From Gaetbulibacter sp. S0825 (GTDB taxonomy: Bacteria > Bacteroidota > Bacteroidia > Flavobacteriales > Flavobacteriaceae), in contig NZ_JAATJT010000001.1 of assembly GCF_011777505.1 (NCBI RefSeq), positions 1,054,001 to 1,118,000 of the forward strand: a DNA stretch of 64,000 nt. Reading direction: 5' to 3'. The translations under genes and the position numbers were made by a program. The stretch's first letter is position 1, and the number at the start of each line of letters is the position of its first letter. Below are positions 9,938 through 22,425 of this stretch, piece after piece. The notes below the pieces were generated by a model that saw only the letters and a list, made by a program, of their open reading frames with translations, was not told the origin of the DNA and did not search any database.

Positions 9938-11488
9938 ATGACTAAAGATCAAAAAGATAATCTATTTGTATTGGTGAAGTCACTGTCTAAATCTGAAAAA
10001 AGACAGTTTAAGCTTTATGTTGGTCGTTTAGGTGTCAATGAAGACTCAAAATTTTTGTTGCTGTTTAATATATTGGACAAAATGCTTGTGTATGATGAGC
10101 AAATAATTCTTAAAAAGGGCATTGTTAAAAAGCAACAGCTTTCTAACTTAAAGGCACACCTTTATAAGCAGATTTTAATTAGCTTAAGACTTAATCCATT
10201 GCATCAAAATATTAGGGTTCAAATTCGCGAACAATTAGATTTTGCGACTATTTTATATCATAAAGGATTGTATAAGCAAAGTTTAAAAATTCTTGATAAA
10301 GCCAAAACATTGGCTCTTAATTATGAAGAGAAAAATATTGCCTATGAAATTTTAGAGCTTGAAAAAATTATTGAATCTCAATATATTACTCGTAGTATAA
10401 GTAATCGTGCTGATGAACTGACAATTCAAGCTAAGCAGTTAAATGCTCAAAATATTCTAGCCAGTAAATTGTCAAATTTATCATTGCAACTTTATGGATT
10501 ATTCCTTAAAACAGGTTATGTAAAAAACGATGAAGAGTATAATCGAGTAACAAAATATTTTAATGCTAGATTACCAAAATACGATATTAAGGAGCTTGGT
10601 TTTAGAGAAAAATTATGGTTATATCAGTCGTATTTGTGGTATAGTTTTTTAGTGCAAGATTTTTTATCTTGTTATAAATATTCGAGAAAATGGGTGGATT
10701 TGTTCTATGAACACCCTGATATGATGAAGCTTAATCCAGTTTTTTTTCTAAGAGGGAATCAATACCTGTTAGAGGCATTGTTTTTTATCAGGCATCACGA
10801 TAAATTCAAATTAGCACTTAATAAATTAGAAACAATTACTCAAGAAAAATGGTTTCCAAGGAATGATAATGTAGAAAGCTTAACGTTTTTATATGTTTAT
10901 TCAAATAAGTTCAATTTACATTTTATGGAAGGTGCTTTCAAGGAAGGTTTGCCTTTAGTGGATGAAGTTTTGGTGGGTATTAAGGAGCACAAAAGTAGAA
11001 TAGATGAGCATCACATAATGGTGTTTTATTACAAAATTGCAAGTTTATATTTTGGTATTGGTGAGAATAAAAAATGCATAGAATTTTTAGATAAAATCAT
11101 TTCCAATAAATCACTTTCCATGCGAGAAGATTTATTATGCTTTTCAAGAGTTTTAAATCTTGTTGCACATTATGAAGCTGGATTGGACTATAATTTAGAT
11201 GCACTTATTAGAAGCACCTATAAATTCCTTATAAGAATGGAAGATTTGTACGAAGTGCAAAAAGAAATGATTAAATTCTTAAGAAATTTAGGAGATATTT
11301 ATCCAAATCAACTGCGAAGAGAGTTTATTAATCTTCATAAAAAATTAAAAACTTATGAAGACCATCCATATGAAAGTCGCGCATTTTTATATCTAGATGT
11401 TATTTCGTGGCTAGAAAGTAAAATAGAAAATAAATCGGTTGATGTGATAATTAGAGAAAAATTTCAATTAAAAAATCTAAAAAAATAA
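9938..11488 (+). CDS. Conserved-looking protein of unknown function, helical-repeat type
   Basis: A 516-residue protein I do not recognise by name. It begins MTKDQKDNLFVLVKSLSKSEK, has no signal peptide or membrane segment, and is rich in Leu, Lys and aromatic residues. The amphipathic helical pattern (for example ALNYEEKNIAYEILELEKIIE, FSRVLNLVAHYEAGLDYN) resembles TPR-like alpha solenoids of Bacteroidetes cytoplasmic proteins. It is divergent from leuA, with 149 bases between the starts, and lies upstream of the methionine regulon, but nothing ties it to either pathway. Base composition and codon use match the neighbours. A scaffold or protein-interaction role is only inference. Confidence 0.85.
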   Translation: MTKDQKDNLFVLVKSLSKSEKRQFKLYVGRLGVNEDSKFLLLFNILDKMLVYDEQIILKKGIVKKQQLSNLKAHLYKQILISLRLNPLHQNIRVQIREQLDFATILYHKGLYKQSLKILDKAKTLALNYEEKNIAYEILELEKIIESQYITRSISNRADELTIQAKQLNAQNILASKLSNLSLQLYGLFLKTGYVKNDEEYNRVTKYFNARLPKYDIKELGFREKLWLYQSYLWYSFLVQDFLSCYKYSRKWVDLFYEHPDMMKLNPVFFLRGNQYLLEALFFIRHHDKFKLALNKLETITQEKWFPRNDNVESLTFLYVYSNKFNLHFMEGAFKEGLPLVDEVLVGIKEHKSRIDEHHIMVFYYKIASLYFGIGENKKCIEFLDKIISNKSLSMREDLLCFSRVLNLVAHYEAGLDYNLDALIRSTYKFLIRMEDLYEVQKEMIKFLRNLGDIYPNQLRREFINLHKKLKTYEDHPYESRAFLYLDVISWLESKIENKSVDVIIREKFQLKNLKK

Positions 11489-11537: not shown

Positions 11538-11567
11538 CGCTCACAAAGTTCAAAAACTTACTGAAAT

Positions 11568-11685
11568 GTTATCAAGAAAGGTGGAGGGATTAGACCCTGC
11601 GAAGCCTTAGCAACCCTTTAGCAATAAAGAAGGTGCTAAATTCTACCTGAAAAACGATTCATTTATCGTGATTCGGATAGATAAC
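11568..11685 (+). promoter_or_regulatory. SAM-I (S-box) riboswitch
   Basis: The sequence matches the S-box core: AAGAAAGGTGGAGGGATTAG, then CCCTGCGAAGCCTTAGCAACC. It continues with the P3 hairpin TTAGCA...TGCTAA, a P4 arm CGAT...ATCG, and closes with GATAAC. P1 is GTTATC (11568-11573) with GATAAC (11680-11685). SAM-I aptamers bind S-adenosylmethionine and shut off methionine genes, which fits metY 123 bases downstream and the met genes beyond. The expression platform is less clear; a hairpin at 11741-11766 is the best candidate terminator. Confidence 0.95.
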
Positions 11686-11740
11686 TCAAACGTAATTACT
11701 CATCTGTAATCTCGTAATTTTCTTATAACATTTTTCTATT

Positions 11741-11808: not shown

Positions 11809-13107
11809 ATGAGTACTCAAAAATTTGCAACCAAAGCGTTGCACGCAGGACATGACGTTAGTCAAAATGCTGGAACAAGAGCAGTTCCAATTTATCAATC
11901 AACAGCTTATGTTTTTAATGATTCTGATCACGCAGCAAATTTATTTGCTTTAGCAGAACCAGGAAACATTTACACACGTATTAACAACCCAACAAACGAC
12001 ATTTTAGAGCAACGTTTGGCAGCTTTAGAAGGTGGAATTGCAGCAGTTGTAACTGCTTCGGGAACATCTGCAATTGCTACATCGTTGCTAACGCTTTTAA
12101 AAGCAGGTGACCATATTGTAGCTTCAAACAGTTTGTATGGTGGAACATACAATTTGTTAAGTGTCACTTTGCCAAGACATGGTATTACAACCACATTTGT
12201 AGACCCTTCTAATCCTGAAAACTTTAATAAAGCAGCTCAGGAGAGTACTAGAGCATTTTTTATTGAGTCTCTTGGAAACCCAAAATTAGATGTACTTGAT
12301 ATTGAGGCTATTTCTAAAGAGGCAAAAGCATATAAAGTGCCATTAATTGTTGATAATACAGTAGCAACACCTTATTTATTAAATCCTATTGAGTTTGGTG
12401 CAAACATCGTTATACATTCGTTGACTAAGTATATTAATGGAAACGGAACAGCGCTTGGAGGTGTTATTATAGATGCTGGGACCTTCGATTGGAGCAATGG
12501 TAAGTTTCCTGAATTTACAGAGCCATCAGCTGGATATCATGGTTTAGTCTATAGCGAAGCTTTAGAGGCTGCTGCTTTTATTGCTAAGGTTAGAATTGAA
12601 GGACTTCGTGATTATGGAGGTGCATTAAGTCCTTTTAATGCCTTTCAAATTATTCAAGGATTAGAAACTCTAGAGTTGCGTATAAAAAAGCATAGTAGTA
12701 ATGCTTTAAATCTTGCCAAATGGTTACAGGAACAACCAGAAGTTAATTGGGTAAACTATCCTGGTTTAGAAACTAGTAAGTATAAAGATTTAACAAGAAA
12801 GTATTTGCCAAATGGACAAAGTGGTATTGTAACCTTTGGAGTTCATGGTGGTTATGAGGCAGCTAAAACAATTGCAGATAAGACTGAACTATTTTCTTTA
12901 TTAGCAAACATTGGTGATACTAAATCTTTAATAATTCACCCAGCAAGTACAACACACCAGCAGTTAAATGACGAAGCTCAAGAAGCTACAGGTGTTACTA
13001 AAGACCTCATTAGGCTGTCAGTTGGAATTGAAAACATTGAAGATTTAAAGGCCGACTTAAAAGAAGCTTTTAAACTTATAAAAGAACCATCCAAAATTTT
13101 AGTTTAG
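11809..13107 (+). CDS. metY: O-acetylhomoserine sulfhydrylase (O-acetylhomoserine aminocarboxypropyltransferase)
   Basis: PLP enzyme of the Cys/Met metabolism family making homocysteine directly from O-acetylhomoserine and sulfide. The 432-residue length and the opening KFATKALHAGHDVSQNAGTR with PIYQSTAYVFNDSDHAANLF are typical of MetY rather than the shorter cystathionine synthases. The PLP lysine is Lys207 in IHSLTKYINGNGTALGG, and the substrate-site tyrosine pattern YTRINNPTNDILE is present. It is the first gene under the SAM riboswitch. A strong terminator lies just downstream, so later genes depend on read-through or an internal promoter. Its substrate would come from the MetX domain encoded next. 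Confidence 0.95.
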   Translation: MSTQKFATKALHAGHDVSQNAGTRAVPIYQSTAYVFNDSDHAANLFALAEPGNIYTRINNPTNDILEQRLAALEGGIAAVVTASGTSAIATSLLTLLKAGDHIVASNSLYGGTYNLLSVTLPRHGITTTFVDPSNPENFNKAAQESTRAFFIESLGNPKLDVLDIEAISKEAKAYKVPLIVDNTVATPYLLNPIEFGANIVIHSLTKYINGNGTALGGVIIDAGTFDWSNGKFPEFTEPSAGYHGLVYSEALEAAAFIAKVRIEGLRDYGGALSPFNAFQIIQGLETLELRIKKHSSNALNLAKWLQEQPEVNWVNYPGLETSKYKDLTRKYLPNGQSGIVTFGVHGGYEAAKTIADKTELFSLLANIGDTKSLIIHPASTTHQQLNDEAQEATGVTKDLIRLSVGIENIEDLKADLKEAFKLIKEPSKILV

Positions 13108-13173: not shown

Positions 13174-16100
13174 ATGAGTGCATTAAAAATTTTGGAAATA
13201 ACAAACTATATTACAAGTACAAGTTATAAAAGTGATATAAAACTTTCTTACGAGGTATTTGGGAAACCACTAGGGAGTGCGCCTGTAGTATTAGTAAATC
13301 ATGCTTTAACAGGTAATAGTAATGTTGCAGGTAAAAATGGTTGGTGGAAAGATTTAATTGGTGAAGAAAAAGCTATAGATACAAATACGTACTCTGTTTT
13401 ATCTTTCAACATACCAGGAAATGGTTACGACGGTTTTGTTATAGATAGTTATAAAGACTTTGTAGCTAGAGATATTGCAGATATTTTTTTAAAAGGGTTA
13501 AAGCTTTTAAAAGTAGATAAGCTTTTTGCAATTATAGGAGGTTCATTAGGAGGTGGAATTGCTTGGGAAATAGCAGTTCTTAATCCAAAAATAACTGAAC
13601 ATTTAATTCCAGTTGCAACCGATTGGAAATCTACAGATTGGCTAATTGCAAACTGTCAGATTCAAGAACAATTTTTATTAAACTCAACTAATCCGGTTCA
13701 TGATGCTAGGATGCACGCTATGTTATGCTACAGGACGCCAGAATCATTTAAAGAACGATTCCAACGTTCTAAAAATGAAACATTGGAAATTTTTAATGTA
13801 GAAAGTTGGTTGCTACATCATGGAAATAAATTGCAAGAGCGATTCCAACTCTCTGCTTACAAATTGATGAATCAATTGTTAAAAACCATAGATGTTACAA
13901 AAGGTAGAGAAGATAATTTTAAAGTATTGGACACTATCAAAGCTAAAATTCACATTATAGGTGTTGATTCTGATATGTTTTTTACTGCTGAAGAGAATAG
14001 AGACACACATAAACAGTTGGCTTTAACGCATCCTAATGTCACTTACAACGAAATTAATTCGGTACACGGACATGATGCCTTTTTAATTGAGTATAAACAG
14101 TTAGAAAAAATAATTAAAGGAATCTTTAAACCAGATTCAAAAGAAAAACGAATGAAAGTATTAAAGTTTGGAGGAAAATCTTTGGCAAATGGAAAAGGTT
14201 TAGAAAAGGTTGTATCCATAATTGAAAATAAAGTAAAACAAGGGGAGCATATAGCAGTAGTTGTATCTGCAAGAGGAAACGCAACCAATGAGCTTGAGGC
14301 AATTCTAAATAAGGCTGTTAAAAATCAAACCTATAAAGAACAGTTAGAAGCTTTTAAAGAATACCAATCTAGCATCGCCACTAACATAAACTTTTCGAAA
14401 GAATTTTCAATTTTAGATAAATTGTTAGAAGGTGTTACATTATTAAAAGATTATAGTAACAAAACAAGAGATGAGCTTTTAGCACAAGGAGAACTTTTAT
14501 CAATTAAATTATTGGAAACCTTATTAAAAGAGCGAGGTATTAACGCCAAGGCCACTGATGCAAGAACACTTATTAAAACCGATGAAAATTTTGGTGAAGC
14601 TCAGCCACTAATGAAACTGTCGAAAGAAAATGTTTTAAAACATTTTGAAAAATATAATGGAAACACCGTAAACATTGTTACTGGCTTTATAGCTTCTAAT
14701 ATAAAAAACGAAACAACTACCTTGGGTAGAAACGGTAGTAACTATACAGCATCATTATTAGCAAACTATTTAGATGCAGAAGAGTTACAAAACTATACGC
14801 ATGTAAATGGCATTTATACAGCAAACCCAGATTTAGTTTCTGATGCAAAGAAAATAGACGAGTTAACATTTAGTGAAGCAAACGAATTAGCCAATTTTGG
14901 GGCAACGATTTTGCATGCTAAAACTATAATTCCTTTAATAGAAAAGAATATTTCTCTTAGAATTTTAAACACGTTTAACCCAGATGATAAAGGGACATTA
15001 ATTACTTCCAGAACAAATTCTAAAGGGATTAAATCACTTTCTATTATCGATAATGTAGCTTTAATAAACTTAGAAGGTCGTGGTTTATTAGGGAAAGCTG
15101 GAGTTGATGCTAGAATTTTTAGAGCCTTGAGTTATCATAATATTAGTGTCAGTATCATTTCTCAAGGTTCTTCCGAAAGAGGTATAGGCTTGGTAATAGA
15201 TGCTAACAAAGCTTCAGAAGCAGTTATTGCTTTAGAAAGAGAGTTCGAAAACGACTTCTATTCAAAAGATGTAAATAAGATTGAAATTATAGACAATGTT
15301 TCTGTGATATCAATAATTGGTCAGGACTTAAGTACATTTCATAAACCATTTAATGCATTAATAAAAAACCAAGTTGTACCATTACTATTTAACAACACGG
15401 TTACTGGTAAGAATGTAAGTTTAGTAGTTAAGAATAACAAATTACATAAAGCTTTAAATGTTATTCATGGTGAAATCTTTGGTATTTCTAAAAAAATAAA
15501 TCTAGCCATTTTTGGTCATGGATTGGTAGGTGGTACATTAATTAATCAAATAATATCTTCAGCAAATGACATAGAAAAACGTAAAGGTGTTAAACTTAAT
15601 ATTTTTGCAATAGCTAACTCCAAAAGTGTGTTGCTCAATTCTAGAGGTGTAAATAGTAACTGGAAGCAAAACTTAGAATCACAAGAAAAAAATTACACAA
15701 TAGAAGATATAATTGCTTACGCTAATGAAAATCATTTAGAAAATTTAATAGCTGTCGACAATACATCTTGTATAGAATTCGTACAACAATACACTAAGTT
15801 AGTAGATCATGGATTCGACTTAGTGTCTTCCAATAAAATAGCAAATACTATTGAGTTAGGGTTTTATCATAAACTTAGAGAACACTTAGTAAAACATCAA
15901 AAACGTTATTTATACGAAACCAATGTTGGCGCAGGTTTACCACTTATCGATACCATTAAGCTATTACACTTGTCAGGTGAAAATATTACTCGAATAAGGG
16001 GTGTGTTTTCAGGGTCATTAAGTTATTTGTTTAACAATTTTTCTAATGAAGAAAGGCTATTTTCCGAAGTGCTTAAAGAGGCAGTAAACAAAGGCTTTAC

Positions 16101-16572
16101 CGAACCAGATCCAAGAGAAGATTTATGTGGAAACGATGTGGCCAGAAAACTATTGATTTTAGCTCGCGAATTAGACTTGCATAACGAAATTGAAGACGTG
16201 AAAATTCAAAACCTTATTCCGGAATCATTACGTACTGTTGATGCTTCAGAGTTTTTAAATTCTTTTGGAAAAATGGATAAAGAATATCAGATTTTAAAGG
16301 ACAACCAGTCACCCAATCACGTTCTACGGTATATTGGCGATTTGCATGGTAATCTAGCAGATGAAAATGGAGCTAAGTTAGATGTTAAATTAGTGTCTGT
16401 TCCTCAAAGTTCACCATTAGGAGCTCTAAAGGGTTCAGATTCAATATTCGAAATATATACAGAATCTTATGGAGAACAACCATTAGTAATTCAGGGAGCA
16501 GGAGCAGGAGCTCAAGTAACAGCTCGAGGTGTATTTGGAGATATTTTAAGATTAGTAGATAACAATAACTAA
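13174..16572 (+). CDS. Trifunctional fusion: homoserine O-acetyltransferase - aspartokinase - homoserine dehydrogenase
   Basis: One 1132-residue open frame covers three steps from aspartate to O-acetylhomoserine. Residues 1-326 are a MetX-type alpha/beta hydrolase (NHALTGNSNVAGKNGWW; nucleophile Ser124 in IGGSLGGG; Asp267 in DSDMFF; His300 in HGHDAFL). Residues 327 to about 620 are an aspartokinase (KFGGKS 331-336, LGRNGS 517-522), followed by ACT regulatory repeats. Residues about 775-1132 are homoserine dehydrogenase (FGHGLVGG from 780, TNVGAGLP, GFTEPDPREDL, catalytic Asp988 and Lys992). The junction is an 8-residue linker followed by an in-frame Met327, so separate internal initiation is conceivable. 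Two kinase positions are unusual: Lys335 for Thr in KFGGTS and His543 for Asp in TDV. It is equivalent to metX plus thrA/metL. Confidence 0.93.
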   Translation: MSALKILEITNYITSTSYKSDIKLSYEVFGKPLGSAPVVLVNHALTGNSNVAGKNGWWKDLIGEEKAIDTNTYSVLSFNIPGNGYDGFVIDSYKDFVARDIADIFLKGLKLLKVDKLFAIIGGSLGGGIAWEIAVLNPKITEHLIPVATDWKSTDWLIANCQIQEQFLLNSTNPVHDARMHAMLCYRTPESFKERFQRSKNETLEIFNVESWLLHHGNKLQERFQLSAYKLMNQLLKTIDVTKGREDNFKVLDTIKAKIHIIGVDSDMFFTAEENRDTHKQLALTHPNVTYNEINSVHGHDAFLIEYKQLEKIIKGIFKPDSKEKRMKVLKFGGKSLANGKGLEKVVSIIENKVKQGEHIAVVVSARGNATNELEAILNKAVKNQTYKEQLEAFKEYQSSIATNINFSKEFSILDKLLEGVTLLKDYSNKTRDELLAQGELLSIKLLETLLKERGINAKATDARTLIKTDENFGEAQPLMKLSKENVLKHFEKYNGNTVNIVTGFIASNIKNETTTLGRNGSNYTASLLANYLDAEELQNYTHVNGIYTANPDLVSDAKKIDELTFSEANELANFGATILHAKTIIPLIEKNISLRILNTFNPDDKGTLITSRTNSKGIKSLSIIDNVALINLEGRGLLGKAGVDARIFRALSYHNISVSIISQGSSERGIGLVIDANKASEAVIALEREFENDFYSKDVNKIEIIDNVSVISIIGQDLSTFHKPFNALIKNQVVPLLFNNTVTGKNVSLVVKNNKLHKALNVIHGEIFGISKKINLAIFGHGLVGGTLINQIISSANDIEKRKGVKLNIFAIANSKSVLLNSRGVNSNWKQNLESQEKNYTIEDIIAYANENHLENLIAVDNTSCIEFVQQYTKLVDHGFDLVSSNKIANTIELGFYHKLREHLVKHQKRYLYETNVGAGLPLIDTIKLLHLSGENITRIRGVFSGSLSYLFNNFSNEERLFSEVLKEAVNKGFTEPDPREDLCGNDVARKLLILARELDLHNEIEDVKIQNLIPESLRTVDASEFLNSFGKMDKEYQILKDNQSPNHVLRYIGDLHGNLADENGAKLDVKLVSVPQSSPLGALKGSDSIFEIYTESYGEQPLVIQGAGAGAQVTARGVFGDILRLVDNNN

Positions 16573-16622: not shown

Positions 16623-17792
16623 ATGGACAATCATAAACTAGAAACAGAAGCAATAAGAACGCAATTAGAGCGTACGCAATTTTTAGAACACACAAGTCCA
16701 TTATACTTAACCTCCAGCTTTGTGTTTGTAGATGCCGAAGATATGCGATCGTCTTTTGCAGAAGAAAAGCAACGTAACATTTACAGTAGGTTTTCTAATC
16801 CTAATAATTCTGAGTTTGTAGAGAAAGTTTGTAAAATGGAGGGAGCCGAAGATGGATATGCTTTTGCTACAGGAATGTCAGCTGTGTACTCAACATTGGC
16901 AGCACTTTTGGAAAGTGGAGATCACATCGTATCTGCCCAATCTGTATTTGGTTCTACACATACATTGTTCACCAAATATTTTCCAAAATGGAATATTACT
17001 ACAAGCTATTTTAAAGTTGATGAGCTTGATACATTGGAAAGTCTTATAACTCCAAATACTAAAATACTATATGCTGAATCACCAACCAACCCAGCAGTAG
17101 ATATTTTAGATTTGGAGCTTTTAGGAAACATTGCTAAAAAGCACAACTTAGTTTTAGTAATTGATAATTGTTTTGCAACTCCTTATTTACAGCAACCTAT
17201 TAAATTTGGAACAGATGTAGTGATACATTCAGCTACTAAGTTAATGGATGGTCAAGGACGAGTATTAGGAGGAGTAGCAGTTGGGAAAGCTAGTTTAATT
17301 AGAGAAATTTATTTATTTTCTCGAAATACAGGACCAGCATTATCACCATTTAATGCATGGACATTGTCTAAAAGTTTAGAAACCTTAGCTGTACGTGTAG
17401 ATAGACATTGTGAAAACGCTTTAAAAGTTGCCGAATTTCTTGAAAATCACGATAAAGTGAATTGGGTTAAATATCCATTTCTAAAATCGCACCCACAGTA
17501 CGAAGTAGCAAAAAGGCAAATGAGTCAAGGAGGCAGTATTGTGGCGTTTGAAATAAAAGGAGGTATTGAATCTGGGCGTAACTTTTTAAATACGATTAAG
17601 ATGTGTTCACTATCTGCAAACTTAGGAGATACACGTACTATTGTGACGCATCCAGCTTCTACAACGCATAGTAAGCTGAGTGAAACAGACAGACTTGAAG
17701 TAAGTATTACTGACGGATTGGTTCGCATATCTGTTGGGTTAGAGAATGTAGAAGATATTATTAAAGATCTAAATCAGGCATTAAAAAAATGA
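16623..17792 (+). CDS. metZ: O-succinyl/O-acetylhomoserine sulfhydrylase (MetZ type)
   Basis: PLP enzyme of the trans-sulfuration family (389 residues). The PLP lysine is Lys206 in HSATKLMDGQGRVLGG; the MDGQGR segment is characteristic of MetZ sulfhydrylases. The N-terminal NIYSRFSNPNNSEFVEKV and the central VIDNCFATPYLQQP are standard family motifs. It could supply homocysteine alongside MetY; cystathionine gamma-synthase activity cannot be excluded by eye. Its TGA stop overlaps the ATG of the next gene by four bases. Since the upstream MetX domain is acetyl-type by context, the true substrate may be O-acetylhomoserine. Confidence 0.88.
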   Translation: MDNHKLETEAIRTQLERTQFLEHTSPLYLTSSFVFVDAEDMRSSFAEEKQRNIYSRFSNPNNSEFVEKVCKMEGAEDGYAFATGMSAVYSTLAALLESGDHIVSAQSVFGSTHTLFTKYFPKWNITTSYFKVDELDTLESLITPNTKILYAESPTNPAVDILDLELLGNIAKKHNLVLVIDNCFATPYLQQPIKFGTDVVIHSATKLMDGQGRVLGGVAVGKASLIREIYLFSRNTGPALSPFNAWTLSKSLETLAVRVDRHCENALKVAEFLENHDKVNWVKYPFLKSHPQYEVAKRQMSQGGSIVAFEIKGGIESGRNFLNTIKMCSLSANLGDTRTIVTHPASTTHSKLSETDRLEVSITDGLVRISVGLENVEDIIKDLNQALKK

Positions 17793-18790
17793 GTGATATA
17801 AAAAAAGAAATCCAAAAACGAATTTTAGTCCTCGATGGAGCCATGGGAACCATGCTTCAGGAGTATAATTTTACAGAACAAGATTTTCGTGGCGAACGTT
17901 TCAAAGACTATCCTTCGTCATTAAAAGGAAATAACGACTTGTTGTCCATTACGCAACCACAGGCGATTGCAGATGTTCATAGAAAGTATTTTGAAGCAGG
18001 AGCAGATATTGTTGAAACCAACACCTTCTCTGGAACTACCATCGCAATGGCAGATTACAACATGGAAGATTTGGTGTATGAACTCAATTTTGAATCTGCT
18101 AAAATAGCAAAGCAAGTAGCTGAGGAATTTACGAAGGCAAATCCAGACAAACCAAGATTTGTGGCTGGAAGTATTGGGCCAACAAACAAAACAGCGAGCT
18201 TATCTCCAGATGTTAATAAGCCAGAATATCGTGCCATAACATTTGATGAGTTACGAATTTCTTACAAGCAACAAGTCGAAGCCTTAATAGATGGAGGGGT
18301 AGATGTGGTGTTGGTGGAGACTATTTTTGATACACTTAACGCCAAAGCTGCATTATTTGCGATTGAAGAGGTTAAGGAAGAACGACAAATTGATATACCA
18401 ATAATGGTTTCTGGAACGATTACAGATGCTTCTGGAAGAACATTATCTGGGCAAACGGTTGAAGCATTTTTAACTTCAATATCTCATATTCCACTGTTAA
18501 GTGTTGGTTTTAATTGTGCATTAGGAGCCGAACAGTTGAAGCCATATTTACAGCGTTTATCTAACAAAACAGAATTTTTTACATCAGCACATCCAAATGC
18601 TGGATTACCAAATGCTTTTGGTGAATATGACCAAACTCCAAAGCAAATGCAGCAATTTATTGAAGACTATCTACAAGATGGACTAATAAATATTATAGGA
18701 GGTTGTTGTGGAACGAGTCCAGCACACATAAAAGCTATTGCCGAAGTAGCAAAAATTTACAAACCTCGAAAAATTGTATTAAATGTATGA
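17789..18790 (+). CDS. metH: Methionine synthase, homocysteine-binding part (split MetH, N-terminal)
   Basis: 333-residue homocysteine S-methyltransferase domain corresponding to the first module of cobalamin-dependent methionine synthase. It starts [31 protein letters not shown], as MetH does. The zinc-binding cysteines are seen in [15 protein letters not shown] and [14 protein letters not shown]. It ends right after this module, and the remaining MetH modules are encoded by the next gene, overlapping by four bases (ATGA). The two proteins should act as a complex; the overlap favours coupled translation and balanced amounts. Confidence 0.93.
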
Positions 18791-21465
18791 GTAGGGTAAT
18801 ATCAAAATACTTAACATTATCTGGTTTAGAACCTCTTGTAGTAACTCCCGAAAGTAACTTTATAAATGTTGGCGAACGTACTAACGTTACTGGCTCAAGA
18901 AAATTTCTTCGATTAATTAAAGAAGAAAAATATAGCGAAGCTTTAGAGGTAGCAAGGCATCAAGTTGATGGTGGTGCACAAATTCTGGATGTCAACATGG
19001 ACGAAGGTATGCTTGATGGTGTATATGCTATGACCACTTTTTTGAATTTGATAGCCTCGGAACCAGATATTGCTAGAATACCAATAATGATTGACAGTTC
19101 GAAATGGGAAATCATTGAAGCAGGATTAAAAGTAGTTCAAGGAAAATGTGTGGTAAATTCCATTAGTTTAAAAGAAGGTGAAGCCGAGTTTATTCGTCAA
19201 GCAAAATTAGTAAAACGTTATGGAGCAGCTGTCATTGTAATGGCTTTTGATGAAGTTGGACAAGCAGATTCTTATGAACGAAGGATAGAGGTTTGTGAAC
19301 GCTCTTATCACATTTTGGTTAATGTTGTCAAATTTTCGCCGCAAGACATCATTTTCGACCCTAATATTTTCCCAGTAGCAACAGGAATGGAAGAACATCG
19401 TAAAAATGCTTTAGATTTCTTTTATGCTACAAGATGGATTCGAGAAAACTTACCTTATGCAAATGTATCTGGAGGAGTGAGTAATGTGTCATTCTCTTTT
19501 AGAGGGAATAATACAGTTCGTGAAGCAATGCATTCCTCATTCTTATTTCATGCTATAAAAAATGGCATGAATTTAGGAATTGTCAATCCGACAATGTTGG
19601 AAGTTTATGATGAAATTGACAAAGAATTATTGCAATGTGTTGAAGATGTATTGTTTGACAGACGTGACGATGCGACCGAACGATTATTAGATTTTGCTGA
19701 AACTGTAAAAGGTCAGAAGAAAGAAACCGCAGAGCAAATTTTAGAGTGGAGAAATGATGCTTTACAAGACAGGATTACTCATGCATTAGTAAAAGGAATT
19801 GATGCTTTTATCATTGAAGATGTAGAAGAAGCACGTTTAGCTTCAGAGAAACCGATTGAAGTCATCGAAGGTCATTTAATGATTGGAATGAATGTCGTAG
19901 GAGATTTGTTCGGAAGCGGAAAAATGTTCTTACCTCAAGTAGTAAAATCAGCACGTGTCATGAAAAAAGCCGTAGCTTATTTGCAACCATTTATTGAGGC
20001 TGAAAAAGACGGCAAACAAGAATTTTCTGGTAAGATTTTAATGGCAACTGTAAAAGGCGACGTGCATGATATTGGCAAAAATATAGTGAGTGTCGTATTG
20101 GGATGTAATAACTATGAAATAGTCGATTTAGGCGTAATGGTGCCACCAGAAAAAATTATTGAAACAGCAATCAAAGAGAAAGTAGATATTATTGGTTTAA
20201 GCGGATTAATCACACCTTCGCTTGATGAGATGGCCTATGTTTCCAAAGAAATGGAAAAGAAAAACCTAAATATTCCATTAATTATTGGAGGTGCAACCAC
20301 TTCAAGAGCTCATACTTCTGTTAGAATTGCTCCGAATTATAGTGATACTGTAGTACATATTAATGATGCTTCGAGAGCTGTAACCGTTGTTGGAAATTTA
20401 CTTCAAAAGGATAATAAAATATATAAAGAACAGATTAGGGAAGAATATGATAAGTTCCGTGAGCAATTCTTAAAACGAGGAAGAAATAAAGAGTATTTAT
20501 CTATTGAAGAAGCGCGGAAAAATAAATTCAAAATCGATTGGAATTCAACTGAAATAGTGAAGCCAAACCAATTAGGAATTCAAATTCTTGAAGATTTCGA
20601 CATTACATTATTAGAAGATTATATTGATTGGTCGCCGTTTTTCCGTAGTTGGGATTTGCACGGTAAGTATCCTCAAATTTTAAAAGATGAGGTAGTTGGA
20701 AATCAAGCGTTAGAATTATTCAAAGATGCGCAAGAGTTGTTAAAACGAATCTTTGATGAAAAGCTACTTAAAGCTAAAGCTGTTTTTGGATTGTTTCCAG
20801 CCAACACAATTAATGATGATGATGTAGAATTATACGATAAATCTGGAAATGTTGAATCTACATTTCTAACCCTTCGTCAACAATCCAGAAAAGCAGAAGG
20901 AAAGCCAAACATAGCTTTATCAGATTTTATTGCGCCAAAAGATTCAGGGAAGCAAGACTATATAGGCGTATTTTGTGTGTCGACTGGTTTTGGAACTGAA
21001 AAACTTGCTAAAGAGTTTGAAGCAAATCATGACGATTATAATGCCATAATGATAAAAGCATTGGCTGATCGTTTAGCAGAAGCTTTCGCAGAATCTTTAC
21101 ATAAAGAAGTAAGAACGAATTATTGGAGTTATGCTCAAGATGAGGAGCTTACTAATGAAGAGTTAATTAAAGAAACCTATAAAGGCATTCGTCCTGCTCC
21201 AGGATATCCAGCTTGTCCAGACCATTTAGAAAAACAGACGATTTGGAAACTGTTAAATGTAAAAGAAAACATTGGTGTAGAACTTACAGATAGTTTGGCC
21301 ATGTGGCCTGCGGCAAGTGTAAGTGGGTATTATTTTGGAAATCCTGAAGCGAGATATTTTGGCTTAGGAAAAATAACCGAAGACCAAGTAAAGGATTATG
21401 CAAGACGTAGAGGTATTTCTACAGAAGAAGCAAAGAAATGGTTGAATCCTAACATAGCAGATTAA
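18787..21465 (+). CDS. metH: Methionine synthase, folate-, B12- and activation-domain part (split MetH, C-terminal)
   Basis: 892-residue protein carrying the last three modules of B12-dependent methionine synthase. The ATG at 18787 is preferred over an upstream TTG at 18703 because it overlaps the previous stop and gives [17 protein letters not shown] leading into the pterin-binding domain ([20 protein letters not shown]). The cobalamin domain has [18 protein letters not shown], whose His is the lower axial B12 ligand, and [13 protein letters not shown]. The C-terminal activation domain has [16 protein letters not shown], which binds SAM. Methyl transfer needs the homocysteine module from the preceding gene. 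metF follows 3 bases later and supplies methyltetrahydrofolate. Confidence 0.94.
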
Positions 21466-21468
21466 AAC

Positions 21469-22425
21469 ATGAAAGTAACAGAACATTTAAAAAAAGCAAA
21501 CGGAAACACACAGTTTTCATTCGAGATATTGCCGCCTTTAAAAGGGCAGCACATTCAATCTATATTCAATAATATTGACCCTTTAATGGAATTTAATCCA
21601 CCATTTATTGATGTCACATACCATCGAGAAGAGTATGTTTATAAAGAGTTAGAAAATGGTTTGTTAAAAAAGCAAGTGGTCAAAAAACGTCCTGGAACGG
21701 TTGGTATTTGCGCTGCAATTCAGAATAAATATTCAGTAGATGCGATTCCACATATTTTGTGTGGAGGTTTTACCAAAGAGGACACAGAGAACTTTTTAAT
21801 CGACTTAGATTTTTTAGGTATTGATAATGTCATGGCTTTACGCGGAGATGCAGTGAAAACAGAAACGTATTTTAAAGCAGAAAAAGAAGGGCATAATTAT
21901 GCTAGCGAACTAGTCACTCAAATTCAAGAATTAAATCGAGGTAATTATTTAGATGAAGAATTACTTAATTCTTCAGCGACAAATTTCTGTGTCGGTGTGG
22001 CAGCTTACCCTGAAAAGCACATGGAAGCGCCAAGTTTAGATAGTGATATTCATTTCTTGAAAAAAAAGATAAGAAATGGTGCTGAGTATATTGTTACACA
22101 AATGTTTTTCGATAATCAAAAGTATTTCGACTTTGTTGAAAAATGTAGAAAAGAAAATATTACAGTCCCAATTATTCCGGGATTAAAACCTATCTCAACC
22201 AAGAAGCAACTTAATTTAATTCCACATAGGTTTCATGTAGATTTACCAGAAGAACTTATTATTGAAGTAGTTAAATGTAAAGACAATGCACAAGTAAAGC
22301 AAATAGGGATTGAATGGTGTATCGAACAATCTAAAGAACTTAAAAAAGCTGGAATTCCAGTATTACATTATTATTCTATGGGGAAAAGTGACAACATAAA
22401 AAGCATTGCTTCGCAAGTGTTTTAA
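21469..22425 (+). CDS. metF: 5,10-methylenetetrahydrofolate reductase
   Basis: FAD enzyme producing 5-methyltetrahydrofolate for methionine synthase. The protein has 318 residues, slightly longer than E. coli MetF. Family motifs are FSFEILPP near the N-terminus, PFIDVTYHREEYV, IDNVMALRGDAVK, and QMFFDNQKYFDFV with IIPGLKPI in the barrel. It begins 3 bases after the split metH and is the last gene of the methionine group. It is presumably under the same SAM-dependent control, subject to the terminator after metY. Confidence 0.95.
   Translation: MKVTEHLKKANGNTQFSFEILPPLKGQHIQSIFNNIDPLMEFNPPFIDVTYHREEYVYKELENGLLKKQVVKKRPGTVGICAAIQNKYSVDAIPHILCGGFTKEDTENFLIDLDFLGIDNVMALRGDAVKTETYFKAEKEGHNYASELVTQIQELNRGNYLDEELLNSSATNFCVGVAAYPEKHMEAPSLDSDIHFLKKKIRNGAEYIVTQMFFDNQKYFDFVEKCRKENITVPIIPGLKPISTKKQLNLIPHRFHVDLPEELIIEVVKCKDNAQVKQIGIEWCIEQSKELKKAGIPVLHYYSMGKSDNIKSIASQVF

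Follow-up and report, generated by a model that had tools for sequence, protein, structure and literature searches.

A 64,000-nucleotide stretch of the Gaetbulibacter sp. S0825 genome was analysed (contig NZ_JAATJT010000001.1, positions 1,054,001 to 1,118,000; hereafter the window). It encodes a protein of 1,132 amino acids in which a homoserine O-acetyltransferase (MetX), an aspartokinase-like core, an ACT-domain region and a homoserine dehydrogenase (HSD) are joined in one chain. This fusion is almost certainly a real architecture and is widespread in flavobacteria. It is a variant of the aspartokinase-HSD and MetX enzymes, and its unexpected part is the kinase site. The favoured reading, held as a whole with slightly better than even confidence, is that the protein is a methionine-dedicated HSD-acetyltransferase whose middle is a repurposed, probably non-phosphorylating module.

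The C-terminal HSD would convert aspartate semialdehyde to homoserine, the N-terminal MetX would convert homoserine to O-acetylhomoserine, and the MetY encoded in the same operon would take O-acetylhomoserine to homocysteine. This methionine-dedicated enzyme would be under the control of a SAM-I riboswitch. The middle would consist of former aspartokinase and ACT domains which have probably lost the ability to form aspartyl phosphate at a useful rate, and in which ligand binding may persist. It would be retained as a module that binds ligands and serves the assembly and allosteric control of both flanking enzymes. A useful kinase rate is doubted because Asn replaces the catalytic Asp and part of the ATP side has changed, while the aspartate pocket is intact. 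The architecture, its conservation, the operon, the residue replacement, the repeated loss of the core and the other aspartokinases of the genome are read from the sequences themselves. We infer all enzyme activities, the loss of kinase function, ligand sensing and any channelling.

Architecture of the fused protein

The original prediction described one uninterrupted 1,132-codon frame joining MetX, aspartokinase and HSD. This was borne out by Pfam and NCBIfam domains along a single open frame at 13174-16572 on the plus strand, with no interruption. Part boundaries were drawn from Pfam, NCBIfam and PDB sequence matches together with an AlphaFold2 model (mean pLDDT 79.4). All parts lie on the plus strand. 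The MetX part spans residues 1-324 (13174-14145), the aspartokinase-like core residues 327-612 (14152-15009), the ACT-domain region residues 613-770 (15010-15483) and the HSD part residues 771-1132 (15484-16569). Pfam matched Abhydrolase_1 (residues 37-149), AA_kinase (327-599), ACT_9 (631-691), NAD_binding_3 (781-915) and Homoserine_dh (923-1125). The NCBIfam MetX_acetyl model TIGR01392 matched residues 20-317 with an E value of 8.3e-54 and 183 bits, below its 500-bit cut-off. That cut-off says little here because control genomes miss it too; it was passed by none of the 23 genomes searched and none of the nine matching control genomes. PRK09436 (AK/HSD I, NF006959) matched residues 327-1129 at 764.8 bits, above the cut-off of 726, and the aspartate kinase model TIGR00657 scored 324.6 bits, above the cut-off of 208.7.

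The structure model is a single chain. Block pLDDT in the kinase region was mostly 80-95. In a Foldseek search, which supports folds and carries no atom positions, aspartokinases were the top PDB matches, with HSD and acetyltransferase structures lower down. The best match was the threonine-sensitive aspartokinase of Methanocaldococcus jannaschii (3c1m, 3c1n; E value 8.6e-36, target TM score 0.85). That enzyme has ordinary GRGGSD and WTDV motifs, whereas the fused protein has GRNGSN and YTHV.

The MetX triad of Ser124, Asp267 and His300, reported as intact in the original prediction, is present and was invariant in 124/124 fused MetX domains and 73/73 separate MetX proteins. The residues surrounding the triad also resemble MetX of the TIGR01392 type, and 2vat, a related acetyltransferase, is among the structures that match the model. 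The MetX part differs from that type in being fused to other enzymes and in having SLGG in place of the usual SMGG. Residues Lys888, Glu977, Asp983, Asp988 and Lys992 of the HSD, whose catalytic roles are presumably those of yeast HSD, were invariant in 122/122 fused proteins. Residue Q664 of the ACT region was kept in every group (fused 122/122, split 46/46, ACT-HSD 15/15, ordinary ThrA-type 44/44).

The C-terminal three parts resemble ThrA and MetL (NF006959, NF007003), with residues 327-1129 aligning end to end with AK/HSD I and the HSD residues intact. Unlike ThrA and MetL, the fused protein carries an N-terminal MetX and has Asn and His at the equivalents of D202 and D222. The ordinary ThrA-type proteins of the same family are approximately 36-39% identical to it.

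A Met at residue 327 marks the MetX/kinase junction, and it had been suggested that this might allow a separate aspartokinase-HSD product. The Met is indeed there; as a conserved feature it did not hold up, since only 67 of the 124 fused proteins have Met at this place. Internal initiation at Met327 was rejected for this reason. The broader idea of two products, arising by internal start or by proteolysis, would fit the separate MetX and aspartokinase-HSD genes of some relatives. It is set against both the Met count and the distance from the GHDAF motif of MetX to the KFGG motif, which is 27 residues in 105 of the 123 fused proteins measured, and is very improbable.

The kinase active site

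The kinase cores of the clade were aligned as 170 distinct sequences (124 fused, 46 split) against 62 ordinary aspartokinases (44 ThrA-type, 15 LysC-type and 3 of E. coli). Each group of identical domains contributed one sequence, the fragments L174 and L303 were left out, and the protein of genome G158 (f11) lies outside the set. Positions follow E. coli LysC. Of 26 columns invariant in the ordinary set, the clade keeps 23 at more than 90% identity and three switch (202, 222 and 219). The equivalent of D202 is N523 (14740-14742, plus strand), which is Asn in 170/170 clade cores vs Asp in 62/62 ordinary ones. The equivalent of D222 is H543 (14800-14802, plus strand), which is Asp in 62/62 ordinary aspartokinases vs His in 163 of the 170 clade cores, the remainder being Asp (3), Asn (3) and Ile (1). 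Position 219, an invariant Ile in the ordinary set, is Asn in 163 cores and Ser in seven. A further 18 columns are 90-99% fixed in the ordinary set and nine of these drop below 90% in the clade. Among the nine is W220, which is Trp in 61/62 ordinary aspartokinases and Tyr or Phe in 164/170 clade cores.

Two basic residues are lost and one is gained. D553 (14830-14832, plus strand) stands at R232, basic in 57/62 ordinary aspartokinases vs 0/163 members with His at 222. T578 (14905-14907, plus strand) stands at K257, basic in 52/62 vs 2/163. K335 (14176-14178, plus strand) stands at position 12, which is Lys or Arg in 157 of the 163 His-222 members vs none of the 62. The codons of N523, H543 and K335 were checked.

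The residues K8, F9-G11, S39, A40, T45, E119 and G183 were kept in 170/170 clade cores. Other residues on the aspartate side were F184 (167/170), R198 (166/170) and S201 (168/170). The aspartate contacts of E. coli LysC reported in PMC5481828 are A40, T45, E119, F184, R198 and S201. The key residues of the catalytic site given in PMC3195717 are R198, S201, T221, D222, Y227, R232, K257 and V258; it assigns R198 and S201 to aspartate and links T221 and R232 with ATP. Among the residues so given there, the clade changes D222, R232 and K257. As read from the alignment, the aspartate half of the site is kept and the other half is partly rebuilt in a fixed manner. The D202 equivalent is Asp also in two aligned UMP kinases.

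D202 and K257 are assumed by us to correspond, with their roles, to Asp162 and Lys217 of N-acetylglutamate kinase; rows similar to that enzyme aligned one column off and were unused. Divergent members of families f12 and f13 keep D222 and are without the new lysine, and thus D202N may have come first, followed by the change of D222 to Asn or His.

The tethering of three pathway steps in one protein had been proposed from the frame. The fusion and the role in methionine synthesis stood, on the architecture, the riboswitch, the operon and the only MetX match of the genome. A working kinase as the third step is doubtful because both kinase aspartates are replaced (N523, H543) and the basic residues at 232 and 257 are gone. 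The kinase site went unmentioned in the original prediction.

Fused, split and kinase-less relatives

The original prediction proposed looking for the same domain order in other flavobacteria, and it was found. A draw on the family gave 149 genomes, that of the window among them; 79 had the fusion and seven had adjoining MetX and aspartokinase-HSD genes. A related HSD without the kinase part was present in at least nine, with MetX found beside it in six; the counts of kinase-less genomes are lower bounds. Distinct fused sequences collected in all numbered 124, and the best 80 named loci contain 44 fused open reading frames. Named carriers include Lacinutrix, Algibacter, Tenacibaculum, Maribacter and Robiginitalea. 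Capnocytophaga and Myroides have split loci, and both arrangements occur in Flavobacterium (L256 and L266 fused; L251, L277 and others split). Among the matches listed from a class-wide draw of 197 genomes, none outside the order spanned MetX and the rest. The gammaproteobacterium Marinicella pacifica has a full-length fusion (L290:4965-8399) with a SAM-I riboswitch and with the aspartate-binding Arg198 replaced by Leu. Its occurrence there suggests transfer.

A stop and a separate start at the junction in close relatives had been named as a sign of assembly error. Some Flavobacterium, Capnocytophaga, Myroides and other bacteria do have genes split in this way, yet the fused and split states interchange repeatedly on a tree of the HSD domain. 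The tree (107 chosen rows, long branches, a quick method, SH-aLRT only) indicates recurrent fusion and fission, since fused and split rows interchange on it, and not an error at this locus. An assembly artefact was ruled out by the presence of the fusion in 79 of the 149 family genomes.

The kinase core is absent from a number of relatives. In the order draw, all 19 genomes of the sister family f4 matched only ACT-HSD and MetX among the matches listed. Matches in these genomes start at residue 612-621, and MetX adjoins. The second gene encodes an ACT-HSD of approximately 515-550 amino acids as an open frame directly after MetX and without the kinase core, as read in ten f4 genomes and five named Chryseobacterium loci. 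On the HSD tree the rows lacking the kinase are nested among those bearing it. HSD-only proteins need three changes, two of them forced by starred branches, and ACT-HSD needs one. The HSD-only protein of genome G052 falls with the closest relatives of the window, on a branch that is starred. By this tree, the kinase core has been lost at least three times.

The gene orders leuA-orf-metY-MetX-HSD-metZ-metH-metF (L041) and leuC-leuA-orf-metY-MetX-HSD-metZ-metH (L047) are that of the window minus the kinase. Three other loci lacking the kinase (L040, L044, L046) differ more, with no MetX match and an extra sulfhydrylase-like gene in its place. Such related operons in kinase-less relatives therefore work without the kinase core. 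The MetX and ACT-HSD pairs of Chryseobacterium and the MetX and HSD pairs of other flavobacteria share related operons with the window and have HSDs 61-70% identical to that of the window. They differ from the fused protein in lacking the kinase core, or the core and the ACT region, and in being unfused.

Locus L048 (G043) keeps the order leuC-leuA-orf-metY-MetX, and kinase, HSD and later met genes were unmatched within the locus after MetX. A second, short paralogue of HSD, with 42-46% identity to that of the window, was found in ten Flavobacterium-type met loci (L177, L178, L251, L277-L279, L281, L282, L295 and L310; for example L251:2624-3748). In 10/10 of these the catalytic Glu is lost (E977 to R, K or T) and G947 is changed to D, whereas ten other HSD-only proteins keep both residues. 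The short paralogue is possibly a pseudoenzyme.

Methionine operon and possible kinase activity

The fused gene is the second of an operon headed by a SAM-I riboswitch and consisting of metY, the fusion, a metZ-like gene, a two-piece metH and a metF-like gene, all on the plus strand. The SAM-I (S-box) riboswitch is at 11566-11687 (Rfam RF00162, 72.3 bits vs a gathering threshold of 44.4). The metY-type O-acetylhomoserine aminocarboxypropyltransferase (432 amino acids, 11809-13107) matched TIGR01326 at 642 bits with a cut-off of 495. The metZ-like homoserine-ester sulfhydrylase (389 amino acids, 16623-17792) matched PRK08133 at 503.8 bits, just below the cut-off of 522. MetY is thus of the O-acetylhomoserine type, and the metZ-like gene best matches O-succinylhomoserine sulfhydrylases, below cut-off. 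The first part of metH (17789-18790) encodes 333 amino acids, of which residues 9-328 align with positions 2-319 of TIGR02082. The second part (18787-21465; Pfam matches on 18793-21462, start predicted) carries the pterin, B12 and activation domains. The metF-like methylenetetrahydrofolate reductase gene (318 amino acids, 21469-22425) was named from its sequence and its place in the operon, and several relatives have homologues at the corresponding position. Of 33 sources scanned for RF00162, 22 contained it (the window 1/1; others 6/11, 10/10 and 5/11), and some of the misses had little upstream DNA in the source scanned. E. coli metL similarly adjoins metB and metF. The fused protein was the only TIGR01392 match in its genome, MetA being outside the search. 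The same genome has a thrA-thrB-thrC cluster, whose ThrA is ordinary, and a LysC keeping both aspartates.

Other features of the region were noted. MetH is split at 17789-21465 into two genes with a 4-base overlap, the homocysteine-binding part having 333 amino acids and the rest 892. The overlap involves the start codon of the second part (ATG at 18787) and the stop codon of the first. Many relatives likewise have the two pieces. A SAM-II riboswitch lies approximately 0.1-3.3 kb from the SAM-I riboswitch in nine loci (L033-L036, L039, L042, L043, L045 and L237), and in eight of these loci the two riboswitches are on opposite strands. A protein of 516 amino acids with no Pfam match is encoded at 9938-11488, and homologues 70-76% identical to it are located beside leuA and met genes in five of the relatives examined.

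Each of the 79 fused and seven split genomes of the family draw had at least two TIGR00657 matches, and hence at least one further aspartokinase match; the tally was counted by hand and active sites were read in part of these further matches. Among the matches listed for the 63 other genomes, 16 had exactly one TIGR00657 match and one had none.

A number of observations weigh against a non-phosphorylating middle. An active kinase repressed by the riboswitch could not be the sole one of its cell, which weakens the argument from further aspartokinases. All 170 clade cores keep T221 and have Tyr or Phe at position 227, and for this reason nucleotide may still bind. K335 could stand in for the lost K257. 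Position 222 is Arg in the aligned UMP kinases, so D222 is dispensable across the superfamily. The 170 clade sequences share ancestry and their counts are not independent events. The rate of the core relative to the HSD is 1.18 in the clade vs 1.08 in ordinary ThrA; being near that of ordinary ThrA, it indicates that the core is constrained and that something is still selected. The sole aspartokinase match of G158 is a clade member with N202, N222, W220 and K232, encoded as a separate 459-residue aspartokinase adjoining aroA (L173:4848-6227). The G158 genome is one contig, 99% complete. Besides this protein it has a single AA-kinase match, assigned as UMP-kinase-like on the basis of its motif, and it has both Asd and DapA. 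On this gene content, the G158 protein is very probably a working aspartokinase, and Asn at 202 would then not by itself be fatal, at least without His222. The aspartokinase-HSD proteins of G155 and G168 also have N202 and N222; no other aspartokinase was matched in these genomes, Asd was matched and DapA was unmatched. Assembly gaps may account for the latter two cases because the sister genomes G176 and G446 hold an ordinary LysC.

A trifunctional enzyme is therefore a realistic possibility, though not the expected one. It would be the flavobacterial counterpart of MetL with MetX added, and its active kinase would have a rebuilt site with Asn202, His222 and the lysine moved from 257 to 12. 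The occurrence of Lys or Arg at 12 in 157 of the 163 members in which 257 is basic in only two fits such a move, as do the kept T221 and Tyr/Phe227, the strong conservation of the core and the Asn/Asn protein of G158. Basic residues also shift in other aspartokinases: nine of the 62 ordinary ones (LysC-type) show Ala12/Lys221/Ser257, and position 257 is Pro in E. coli MetL. Against this, D202 is Asp in all 62 ordinary aspartokinases and in both UMP kinases, and G158 with its N222, W220 and K232 is unlike the His-222 group. The core has been lost repeatedly, and among the matches listed no genome of the family draw has it as the sole aspartokinase.

The opposite alternative, in which the core is only an inert leftover, spacer or dimer scaffold, would agree with relatives that lack the core and keep the neighbouring parts. 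The fixed Asn, His and Lys/Arg and the aspartate pocket, intact down to approximately 50% identity, argue instead for a working ligand site, as does the relative rate close to that of ordinary ThrA, and this alternative is improbable. A decaying kinase domain was unsupported, its constraint resembling that of ordinary ThrA. A kinase flatly dead across the whole clade was weakened by G158. For the favoured methionine-dedicated enzyme with a repurposed middle, a more specific role is put forward tentatively: the clade may be a pseudo-aspartokinase that senses aspartate and tunes the fused HSD and acetyltransferase to the starting substrate of the pathway.

No paper on the fusion was found in the open-licence PMC literature, with subscription literature and protein databases outside the search. 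Annotation by NF006959 would name the protein a bifunctional aspartokinase/HSD, hiding the presence of MetX and the changes in the kinase site, and pathway reconstructions of these bacteria may count a non-working aspartokinase. If the domain is inactive, it would be a pseudokinase within a metabolic enzyme, with relatives that have lost the domain altogether, and a regulatory role would be testable. If it is active, an aspartokinase can work without an Asp that is invariant in every ordinary member checked. Either outcome would be informative on how amino-acid kinases work.

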